64,000 nucleotides of DNA from Microbacterium sp. TNHR37B (GTDB lineage: Bacteria; Actinomycetota; Actinomycetes; Actinomycetales; Microbacteriaceae), in the NCBI RefSeq assembly GCF_001620065.1, contig NZ_LQGV01000001.1, positions 248,001 to 312,000 of the forward strand. Direction: 5' to 3'. The first letter of the stretch is position 1, and each line of letters starts with the position of its first letter. The position numbers and the translations under genes were made by a program. The notes below the pieces were generated by a model, which saw nothing but the letters and a program-made list of their open reading frames with translations, was not told where the DNA came from and ran no database searches. This document shows positions 223 to 3,866 of the stretch, in pieces.

Positions 223-456
223 TCAGGGACAGTGCATGAGCGGCTTCGGGCCGCTGCGATCGAAGGTGTGCTCCGACATCGGATGACCGCACAGCGGACA
301 CGCGCGGCCGGTGCGCTCCGGCTCCGGCTCGGTGTCATACGGACCGACGGAGGCCGGTCCGGCGAACCGGATGAGCCGGCTGTTGAGGTACGCGTACCAG
401 CCGCCCGCCTCGCGAACGCGTTGGCGAAGGGTCGAATCCGGTTCGCTTCGTGTCAT
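223..456 (-). CDS. Uncharacterised 77-aa zinc-ribbon-like protein divergent from OhrR
   Basis: I do not recognise this family. The protein has 77 residues. Its N-terminal half is basic and aromatic (GGWYAYLNSRLIRF around residues 18-31). The C-terminal part has C53-x2-C56, H58, H63 and a terminal H75-C76 pair, suggesting one zinc site. There is no signal peptide or membrane segment. The start at 456 is chosen because the minus strand carries TACACT (464-469) 7 nt upstream of the ATG, as in other probable leaderless genes here, and because the first in-frame ATG lies at the operator. It is transcribed away from the OhrR-like gene and shares its operator, so it is probably that regulator's target. 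Function is unknown. Confidence 0.6.
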   Translation of the reverse strand: MTRSEPDSTLRQRVREAGGWYAYLNSRLIRFAGPASVGPYDTEPEPERTGRACPLCGHPMSEHTFDRSGPKPLMHCP

Positions 457-461
457 GATGA

Positions 462-473
462 TTAGTGTACTAA
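462..473. promoter_or_regulatory. Probable OhrR/MarR operator between divergent genes
   Basis: TTAGT-GT-ACTAA is an inverted repeat with 5-bp arms and a 2-bp spacer. It lies in the 32-bp gap between the 77-aa gene (start 456) and the MarR-type gene (start 489). It overlaps a minus-strand -10 candidate TACACT (464-469) and a plus-strand candidate TAGTGT (463-468), so a bound dimer would block both promoters. MarR-family dimers commonly bind such AT-rich palindromes between divergent genes. Binding itself is inferred. Confidence 0.55.
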
Positions 474-488
474 GGATTGGATAGGTGG

Positions 489-962
489 ATGGACGCGCGT
501 GACGAGATGCTCGCTCTGGAGAGCCAACTGTGCTTCGCGCTCGTGACGGCCGCGCGGAACGTCGTCTCCCTGTACCGGCCGATTCTCGAGCCACTCGGGC
601 TGACGCATCCGCAGTACCTCGTGATGCTCGCCCTCTGGGAGCAGTCGCCCCGGTCGCTCGCGGACCTCGCGGAGGCTCTCGCGATGGAGCCGGCGACGCT
701 GTCGCCGCTCGTGAAGCGATTGGAGGCTCAAGGCAGGGTCGAGCGCAGCCGCCGCTCCGATGACGAACGCGTTCTCGACATCGCGCTCTCAGCCGACGGG
801 CGGGCATTGCGCGAACGGGCCCTCGAGGTGCCCGGAGCGGTCATGGAACGAGTGGGGATGGACGTCGCGGAGATCGTCGAGCTCCGCGAAGCGCTGGCCA
901 GGTTTGCGGGCCCGCGATCCCGGCATGGCCGCTCCGGAGCCGATGTCGGAACCCCGACCTAG
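489..962 (+). CDS. MarR-family regulator, one-cysteine OhrR type
   Basis: A 157-aa winged-helix regulator. The N-terminal motif ESQLCFAL places its only cysteine at residue 15, the position of the peroxide-sensing Cys of Bacillus OhrR. It is followed by the family pattern [14 protein letters not shown] and by a recognition helix and wing (LSPLVKRLE, then [10 protein letters not shown]). OhrR proteins repress organic-hydroperoxide genes until this Cys is oxidised. I chose ATG 489 because it gives Cys15 and has a purine-rich GGATAGG just upstream; a TTG at 477 is the alternative. No ohr peroxidase gene is adjacent: the divergent partner is the 77-aa zinc-ribbon gene. Its TAG stop overlaps the -10 box of uvrA. 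Confidence 0.8.
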
Positions 963-971: not shown

Positions 972-3866
972 GTGCCCATCGTCCCCGTCGCTTCCCCGTC
1001 GAAACTGAGTGTCCGTGGCGCCCGCGTCCACAACCTGAAGGATGTCGATCTCGACATTCCGCGCGACGCGTTGGTCGTGTTCACCGGCCTCTCCGGCTCC
1101 GGAAAATCGAGCCTCGCGTTCGACACGATCTTCGCCGAGGGACAGCGTCGCTATGTCGAGTCCCTGAGCTCGTACGCGCGCCAGTTCCTCGGGCAGGTGG
1201 ACCGTCCCGACGTCGACTTCATCGAGGGACTGAGCCCTGCCGTCTCCATCGACCAGAAGTCGACCAACCGCAACCCGCGTTCGACGGTCGGAACCATCAC
1301 CGAGATCCACGACTACATGCGGCTGCTGTGGGCGCGGATCGGTGTCCCGCACTGCCCGACCTGCGGTGAGCGCATCCAGCGACAGACCGTGCAACAGATC
1401 GCCGATCAGCTCGCCGAGCTCCCCGAGCGCACCCGCTATCAGATCGTCGCGCCGGTCGTCTCTCAGAAGAAGGGGGAGTTCGTCGACCTCTTCAAGGAGC
1501 TGTCCGCCAAGGGCTATGCCCGCGCGGTGGTCGATGGTGAACTCATTCAGCTCGCCGAACCGCCGACACTCAAGAAGAGCTACAAGCACGACATCGCCGT
1601 CGTGGTCGATCGGCTCGTCGCGGCCCCGGATCTCCTCGGCCGCATCACCGATTCCGTCGAGACCGCGCTGGGACTCGCCGGCGGCGTCATGCAGGTCAAC
1701 TTCGTGGACGCCGAAGGCGACGAGGCATGGCAGAGCTACTCCGAGAAGCTGGCCTGCCCCAACGGTCACCCGCTCCAGCTGACGGAGATCGAGCCGCGCA
1801 CGTTCTCGTTCAACGCCCCCTTCGGCGCATGTCCGGCTTGCTCGGGACTCGGCACGCGCATGTCCGTCGACGTCGACCTCCTGCTGGGAGATGAGGAGCT
1901 CTCGATCAACGAGGGCGCGATCCTGCCCTGGACCACTCAGGGCAAGGGGCTGTTCCAGTACTATGAGCGGCTGCTCGTCGGTCTGGCCGACGACCTCGAC
2001 TTCTCGCTGGACACACCATGGCGCGACCTCCCCGACCGCGTGAAGGAAGCGGTGCTCCGCGGCGAGAACTTCAAGGTCACGGTCCGATGGAAGAACCGTT
2101 ACGGGCGCGAGATGCGCTATACCTCGGGGTTCGAGGGCGTGATCCCCTACATCGAGCGTCAGTACACGCAGGCGGAGTCCGACACACAGCGCCAGCGCTG
2201 GGCGGAGTACCTCCGAGAGGTCCCGTGCCCGGTGTGTCAGGGCGACCGACTCAAGCCGGAGGTCCTCGCAGTTCGCGTCCACGGGCACTCGATCGCCGAC
2301 GCATCGCGCATGAGCCTCGGAGAAGCGCAGGTCTACTTCGCGGAACTGGAACTGACCGATCGAGAGGCGCAGATCGCGGCGGCGGTGCTCCGTGAGATCC
2401 GCGCGCGGCTCGACTTCCTCATCCAGGTGGGCCTGAACTACCTGAGCCTCGGCCGCTCCGCCGGGTCGCTGTCCGGAGGCGAGGCGCAGCGCATTCGGCT
2501 CGCGACGCAGATCGGCTCCGGCCTCACCGGTGTGCTCTACGTCCTCGACGAGCCGTCGATCGGCCTGCATCAGCGAGACAATCGACGTCTGATCGAGACG
2601 CTGGTGCGCCTGAAGAGCCTCGGCAACACGCTGATCGTCGTCGAGCACGACGAGGAGACGATCGATGCCGCCGACTGGGTGGTCGACATCGGGCCCCGCG
2701 CCGGTGTGCACGGCGGCGAGGTCGTCCATTCCGGCCCCCTTGCGTCGCTCCTGGAAGACGACCGCTCGGTGACGGGCGCCTACCTGAGCGGTCGGCGCCA
2801 GATCGAGACGCCTCGCACGCGGAGGAAGATCGACAAGAAGCGTGTCGTCACGGTCGTGGGCGCGCGGGAGAACAACCTCAAGAACGTCACCGTCGACTTT
2901 CCGCTCGGCGTGCTGACGGCGGTCACCGGTGTCAGCGGCTCGGGGAAGTCGACCCTCGTGAACGGCATCCTGTATGAGGTGCTGGCGACGCGTCTGAACG
3001 GTGCGCGACGGGTGGCGGGCAAGCACACTCGCGTGACGGGTCTGGAGAACCTCGACAAGGTCGTCCACGTCGATCAGGCGCCCATCGGACGCACGCCCCG
3101 CTCCAATCCTGCGACCTACACGGGGGTGTTCGACCGCATCCGCACGCTGTTCAGCGAGACGCCGGAAGCCAAGGCGCGGGGGTATCAACCGGGTCGGTTC
3201 AGCTTCAACGTCAAGGGCGGCCGCTGCGAAGCCTGTTCGGGCGACGGCACGATCAAGATCGAGATGAACTTCCTGCCCGACGTGTATGTGGATTGTGAGG
3301 TGTGTCACGGTCAGCGGTACAACCGCGACACGCTCGCCGTCCACTACAAGGGCAAGAACATCGCTGAGGTGCTCGATATGCCGATCTCTGAGGCGGCGGA
3401 GTTCTTCGAGCCGATCCAGGCGATCCACCGGTACTTGCGGACCCTCGTGGACGTCGGCCTCGGCTATGTGCGCCTGGGCCAATCGGCGACGACCCTGTCT
3501 GGGGGCGAGGCGCAACGCGTGAAGCTCGCGACCGAACTGCAGCGCCGCTCCAACGGACGCAGTGTCTATGTCCTGGACGAGCCGACGACGGGCCTCCACT
3601 TCGAGGACGTACGCCGCCTCCTCGAGGTGCTGGGTGGTCTCGTCGACAAGGGCAACACGGTCATCGTCATCGAGCACAACCTCGACGTCATCAAGTCCAG
3701 CGACTGGATCATCGATCTCGGTCCCGAGGGAGGCGCCGGCGGCGGACAGATCGTGGCGACCGGCACCCCCGAGCAGGTCGCCGCTGTTCCCGAGAGTCAC
3801 ACCGGAACCTTCTTGGCGGAGATCCTCCCGACCGGAACGGCAGCGACCGCGCGCAAGGCCGGCTGA
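972..3866 (+). CDS. uvrA: Excinuclease ABC subunit A
   Basis: A full-length UvrA of 964 aa, the damage-sensing ATPase of nucleotide excision repair; it loads UvrB onto lesions. It has two ABC cassettes. The first Walker A is GLSGSGKS at residues 39-46, followed by the [14 protein letters not shown] and [13 protein letters not shown] stretches typical of UvrA, and the second is GVSGSGKST near residue 655. Both [10 protein letters not shown] signatures and both LDEP Walker B motifs are present. CxxC zinc modules occur as CPTC, CPAC, CPVC and CEAC/CEVC. The GTG start is supported by the -10 box exactly 6 nt upstream. uvrC follows one base after the stop, so the two are probably cotranscribed. 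No LexA-type box was identified by eye. Confidence 0.98.

Follow-up and report, generated by a model that had tools for sequence, protein, structure and literature searches.

Comparison of Microbacterium sp. TNHR37B with its relatives points, with moderate confidence, to a dedicated thiol-switch repressor that would act on a single small, unnamed and probably leaderless target, the two genes being arranged as a divergent pair. The regulatory half of this reading, namely a conserved and dedicated repressor–target pair whose regulator belongs to a new OhrR-like subfamily, is well supported by these comparisons. The repressor appears to control only its own gene and that of the small protein, and because relatives throughout the actinomycetes carry repressors of this type, in many cases together with a small partner protein, the pair looks like an old, unstudied switch instead of a textbook peroxide-detoxifying pair. 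A first-pass annotation of this DNA had described the pair, its palindrome and its residues, a description which our analysis confirms and finds understated; the interpretation that accompanied it is, as a whole, supported in part.

Layout of the pair and its predicted operator

The window, i.e. the whole stretch of 64,000 nucleotides that was analysed, is part of a 3.5-Mb genome, and the pair lies in it between the end of uvrB (1–177) and uvrA (972–3866, + strand; a DNA-repair gene, considered here as downstream context only), as we presume these two flanking genes to be. The gene of the small protein (456..223, − strand) encodes 77 aa, which start with MTRSEP, pass through CPLCGHPMSEH and end in LMHCP, and all residues listed in the first-pass annotation (Cys53, Cys56, His63, His75 and Cys76) are present in the translated frame. 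N-terminal helices and a GPAxVGP motif are followed by a C-terminal C-x2-C-x6-H-x12-C knuckle. The regulator gene (489..962, + strand) encodes 157 aa when read from ATG489, the start that yields Cys15, located within ESQLCF; the list of open reading frames starts it at TTG477. The regulator retains Cys15 and Tyr29, carries His40 in the place of Tyr40 and has Val at position 19.

Both genes share a putative operator, the palindrome TTAGT-GT-ACTAA (TTAGTGTACTAA; 462–473, given without strand), which was predicted from the sequence. Candidate −10 elements were picked by eye as TANNNT matches, with TACACT of the small gene (469–464, − strand) standing 7 nt ahead of its ATG, and TAGTGT of the regulator gene (463–468, + strand) 20 nt ahead of ATG489. 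The earlier claim that the palindrome overlaps both −10 candidates holds by coordinates, whereas their presumed promoter function gained no backing from a sigma-70 scan, which found no promoter-like site and picked up neither candidate.

TTAGTGTACTAA is the sole perfect match to the pattern TTAGTNNACTAA across the 3.5-Mb genome and, within the window, the sole match at up to one mismatch (0.03 expected from shuffled sequences; 3 of 100 shuffles had one). A wider regulon in this genome was considered and rejected, as a genome-wide search at one mismatch added one further site only. Among the named loci (the best 80 of 210), the operator is exact in 72 and has one mismatch in 8. A comparison of 107 homologous sites carrying no more than one mismatch, with start codons set by our judgement, showed 88 sites with 5 nt between the operator end and the small-gene start and 12 with 4 nt, and 98 of the 107 had AC at the centre of the operator. 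This spacing of 4–5 nt puts the end of TACACT some 7 nt ahead of the start, as in leaderless genes, and we infer that the small-gene transcript is probably leaderless.

The perfect pattern was found in 28 of 38 genomes, a set mostly picked for carrying the pair, and in all 28 one copy lies at the pair locus; a control search with the reversed pattern gave a single site in 7 of the 38. The ten genomes without a perfect operator comprise two that lack the pair (G003 and G033) and eight that have the small gene (G058, G074, G090, G100, G107, G113, G290 and G388). Extra perfect sites are present in three genomes. G117 contains TTAGTCCACTAA twice (L372, 2521 and 2597), with CC at the centre, between purF-like and purM-like genes; G120 contains TTAGTCGACTAA (L374, 1956), with CG at the centre, ahead of a glmS-like gene; and G007 contains TTAGTATACTAA (L373, 2286), with AT at the centre, ahead of an aminotransferase-like gene, all gene names being assigned by eye. 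The sites in G117 and G120 probably serve other regulators, and the one in G007 may be a second target there, since the centre AT also occurs at pair loci.

Exact operators were likewise encountered upstream of regulators at increasing taxonomic distance: in 18 of 34 loci from other genera of the family (versus 1 of 170 control windows), in 13 of 48 from the order (versus 0 of 238) and in 9 of 28 from the class (versus 0 of 126). None of 22 regulators with Tyr at position 40 (3 from other genera, 4 from the order and 15 from the class) had an exact operator upstream.

Linkage of the pair and the His40 regulator clade

The first-pass annotation had named an unlinked small gene in relatives, or non-conserved Cys residues, as findings that would speak against its reading. 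Linkage held, with a divergent pair in all 80 named loci (the best 80 of 210; mostly Microbacterium), and the Cys residues are kept in the 126 homologues examined. One of these loci, L148, is of Microbacterium type but comes from an assembly labelled Stenotrophomonas maltophilia (JACEFY010000265.1) and is probably a contamination.

Within the genus, 32 of 35 genomes have the small gene and 31 an orthologous regulator (at least 63% identity): both genes are present in 31 genomes, neither in three (G003, G016 and G033), and one genome, G030 (77% complete), has only the small gene, which lies there by uvrB without regulator and without operator (L069, 5065–5298). The small gene is strongly diverged in G026 and G032, both among the 31 genomes with the pair, and G032 has a second, regulator-free small gene between uvrA and uvrB (L066, 1797–1946). 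In Microbacterium hydrothermale (L103, 4001–4329), a second match to the C-terminal knuckle follows directly after the small gene and looks like a partial tandem duplication.

In the family as a whole, the small gene was detected in 272 of 398 genomes and 62 of 85 genera. Forty loci from other Microbacteriaceae genera, our own pick from a ranked list and spread over many genera, revealed a regulator adjoining the small gene in 34, in divergent orientation in 30, on the same strand in L151, L161 and L189 and convergent in L168; the loci lacking an adjoining regulator are L150, L172, L176, L181, L184 and L187. Two loci of family f5 (L067 and L068) have a homologous knuckle gene, with a priA-like neighbour as judged by eye and no close His40 regulator in the genomes.

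The regulator matches the MarR model PF01047 at 4.9e-14 and the OhrR structures 2pfb (E 3.7e-31) and 1z91 (E 1.3e-27), which we take to be those of X. campestris and B. subtilis, respectively; with the best-matching NCBIfam OhrR equivalog, NF052638, it reaches 133 bits, below the cut-off of 200. Together with the sequence read, these matches agree with the first-pass description of an OhrR-like, one-Cys regulator with Cys15 whose neighbour is not ohr. According to excerpts of a published account, most ohrR genes sit linked to ohr (PMC6034001). The regulator shares with OhrR of Bacillus subtilis and Xanthomonas campestris the MarR homology, the N-terminal sensing-type Cys15, Tyr29 and the divergent layout, but differs in having His for Tyr40, a small residue for Tyr19, the operator TTAGTNNACTAA, a non-ohr neighbour and no Ohr over cut-off in the genome. 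CrtR of Corynebacterium glutamicum resembles it in being an actinobacterial MarR repressor that is divergently encoded, regulates its own gene and may have a single site per genome, and differs, in the excerpts of its description, in a longer N-terminus, a TTAA site, isoprenoid pyrophosphates as effectors and the control of carotenoid genes (PMC5401885). On the basis of that description, CrtR was set aside as a match.

All 116 pair-linked regulators have Cys15, Tyr29 and His40, with V, A, S or T at position 19, whereas 15 of 15 ohr-linked paralogues carry Tyr at each of positions 19, 29 and 40 (the genus has 19 ohr loci, of which 15 yielded an OhrR within the stretch fetched). In B. subtilis OhrR, Tyr29 and Tyr40 line the Cys15 pocket, and the sensor pocket of OhrR is shaped by Tyr19 and Tyr40. 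A regulator lacking these last two could respond to a different signal, or to a bound ligand in place of oxidation. In a tree of 148 rows, which is built on few columns for this number of rows and shows long branches in its Tyr40 part, all 123 His40 sequences, each with A, V, S or T at 19, fall on one side of a branch with support 100/96, and the His40/Tyr40 labels require 1 change as compared to 23.5 for shuffled labels. These data support a separate clade of His40 regulators that is not limited to the order.

Nineteen of the 35 genus genomes encode a true Ohr (TIGR03561 over cut-off). The window's genome contains no Ohr over cut-off: its best TIGR03561 match, one of two OsmC-family proteins, scores 46.5 bits where 88.85 would be needed, and the second OsmC-family protein does not appear among the matches. 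Because its genome has no true Ohr and it belongs to the supported His40 clade, the regulator is, as judged by homology, not an Ohr regulator.

The small protein and its counterparts in other lineages

The motif C-x2-C-x6-H...C is present in all 126 homologues of at least 60 aa (from a set of 128 rows, two shorter ones being left out), and G33, G38, C53, C56, H63, C76 and P77 are invariant in 31 diverse rows. At position 75, for which the first-pass annotation had included His in its list of Cys/His residues, some relatives have T, Y, F, V, N or R; because it varies, this His is unlikely to be a zinc ligand. Most likely, the C-terminus would bind one zinc via C53, C56, H63 and C76 as a structural knuckle.

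The protein had not been recognised as a member of any family, and indeed its scores stay below the curated cut-offs of the Pfam and NCBIfam models: the window protein returned sub-threshold motifs, and its 31 homologues weak matches only. The RGCVC family (NF038206) resembles residues 42–63 at 19 bits against a cut-off of 35, leaving the N-terminal helix and C76 outside the match, and 6 of the 31 homologues match it at E ≤0.1 (best 0.00098). A sequence search of the PDB gave a best E of 0.3, and a fold search with the predicted model a best E of 6.4. This model is of modest confidence (pLDDT 79.6, pTM 0.35) and places helices at 10–17, 20–32 and 34–37, followed by a C-terminal knuckle with strands 64–66 and 73–75; residue blocks within 51–77 average a pLDDT of 88–91. 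An amphipathic membrane helix is not claimed, as the hydrophobic moment of the window's helix was not above shuffles (35% of the shuffles were as high); for two of nine helices this share fell below 5%. A phylum-wide search with the family profile matched 12 of 396 genomes, of which six belong to the window's family; the six matches outside it are weak (2.5e-4 to 9.2e-4).

Following the regulator, we examined 51 loci of the order (11 + 40) and 32 of the class, taken from ranked lists. In the order, the window's family included, the regulator matched in 120 of 347 genomes at E 1e-33, these matches not being all of the His40 type (L330 has Tyr40). By eye, 38 of 48 His40 loci outside the family have a nearby small protein that combines an N-terminal helix with a GPA-like motif, 34 of them divergent and 4 co-directional (L304, L310, L313 and L318), and the other 10 have no recognisable GPA partner nearby. 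A fixed rule detected a GPA partner at 32 of these 48 loci as compared to 20 of 666 shifted anchors, the by-eye count being higher because of the four co-directional partners and looser motifs, e.g. GGA. The same rule returned 26 of 34 loci in the family's other genera (versus 6 of 476) and 9 of 28 in the class (versus 5 of 338), where its matches L348 and L363 are not GPA partners by eye and the by-eye partner L358 was missed; at Tyr40 loci, it returned 1 of 22, against 5 of 196 for their own shifted anchors.

The 31 partners aligned outside the family contain no Cys, and their C-termini show a hairpin-like D-G-x-x-Y stretch in 18 rows and a charged stretch in 13. In profile comparisons of family and outside partners, the helix–GPA part alone matches (probability 76–80%, E 1.4e-5 to 2.2e-5, values of single comparisons); as the outside partners were first found by their GPA pattern, these comparisons are not independent, and the fixed rule with shifted anchors is the fairer test.

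At class level, 28 of 32 loci are of the His40 type. Knuckle partners are present in families f107, f106 and f115 (L345, L347, L349, L352 and L353), three of the five having been tested and reaching 50 to 59 bits with the family profile, which indicates that the knuckle form also exists outside Microbacteriaceae; they were reached via the regulator, not via the phylum-wide profile search. The f105 loci L341–L343 and L362 have as partner a small protein with an HGPAK motif and, by eye, one hydrophobic stretch, and such a partner probably also stands at L339, L340, L344 and L351, as judged from antisense frames. Relative to the regulator start it lies at −382..−196 in L341 and −237..−63 in L342, and the L341 protein has a weak CrgA resemblance (0.056). 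In f22/f125, a DUF5313 protein (PF17240) stands beside the His40 regulator, downstream in L357, L365, L366 and L367 and divergent in L348 (assigned by Pfam at L366 and L348, by eye at the others). It resembles the small protein in accompanying a His40 regulator, here in other families, but is hydrophobic, membrane-type and without knuckle. Judged by eye, the partners at L356, L358 and L359 are GPA proteins that lack a knuckle, and no clear partner was seen in the rest of the 32 class loci.

That partners in sister lineages do without Cys speaks against a core function based on zinc or thiols. Accordingly, the first-pass proposal of a thiol- or zinc-based oxidative-stress factor does not stand as far as zinc or thiols were to be the essence of the partner, and an oxidative-stress function of the small protein is conjectural.

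Proposed mechanism and alternative readings

In the mechanism that we propose, a reduced regulator dimer would sit on TTAGTGTACTAA, covering the −10 elements and shutting both promoters. Modification of Cys15 by an organic peroxide, a hypochlorite-type oxidant or an electrophile would release the regulator, and its release would switch on both the regulator gene and the small gene. Binding to TTAGTGTACTAA, repression and redox sensing by the regulator are predictions from sequence features. Because the operator pattern shows no other target in the window's genome, the small protein would be either the effector or the dedicated partner of the regulator, and its N-terminal helix and GPA motif, common with non-zinc partners, probably perform the shared job.

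Placement within a conserved uvrB–uvrA gene order alone, with no functional coupling, would suit the genus, in which uvrA is found in 72 of the 80 named loci (the best 80 of 210) and the regulator-free copy of G032 also lies between uvrA and uvrB. In other genera, however, uvrA occurs in 1 of 40 loci (about 4 kb on each side, matches >300 aa) yet the regulator adjoins the small gene in 34, the linkage holds where orientation varies, and no ORF cluster is common to more than 6 of 43 loci compared, frames over the pair aside. Gene order was rejected on these counts as the cause of linkage, and this explanation, already contradicted, retains hardly any probability. We also regard as very improbable a classical ohr regulator that lost its ohr and kept a chance neighbour: the clear OhrR homology, Cys15 and the lack of an Ohr over cut-off in the window's genome fit such a history, but a separate Tyr40-type OhrR stands by ohr in 15 of the 19 ohr loci of the genus, in genomes that also have a His40 regulator, and the distinct His40 clade and the conserved small gene and operator already contradict it.

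With Tyr19 and Tyr40 lost, the opened pocket might accommodate a small ligand (a phenolic, a lipid or an isoprenoid-type compound) that the regulator senses in place of oxidants, Cys15 having a secondary role; we give this reading a low probability. Such sensing would agree with His40 and A, V, S or T at 19 in all 123 His40 rows and has a precedent in CrtR, in excerpts of its description a ligand-sensing actinobacterial MarR with maybe one site per genome (PMC5401885), whereas the invariance of Cys15 and Tyr29 (116/116) is hard to explain if the thiol has no role. It is rather unlikely, in our estimation, that the small protein is an antirepressor or co-sensor binding the regulator and not a stress effector. 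ArmR/MexR is a precedent for an antirepressor, and the usual single perfect operator per genome, the survival of the pairing through orientation changes and the match of the helix–GPA part alone among partners with unlike C-termini are in line with this role; the small gene, however, persists without regulator in G030 and family f5. Extended to the class Actinomycetes, the His40 subfamily would constitute a two-part sensor, in which the helix–GPA part of an antirepressor or co-sensor partner binds the regulator and its C-terminus (zinc knuckle, hairpin, charged helix or membrane-type stretch) ties it to lineage-specific cell sites, a speculative proposal that we consider quite improbable.

Our preferred reading thus remains that of a dedicated thiol-switch repressor with one small target. 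Within titles and abstract openings from a collection covering few subscription journals, nothing on this pair was recognised, and since the partners are small, unnamed and easily missed, this old switch may have escaped study. Taken together, the analysis sets a large group of 'OhrR'-looking actinomycete proteins apart from the Ohr pathway, offers the residue at position 40 (His or Tyr) and the operator TTAGTNNACTAA as tests to distinguish them, and points to the single gene that each His40 regulator seems to control.
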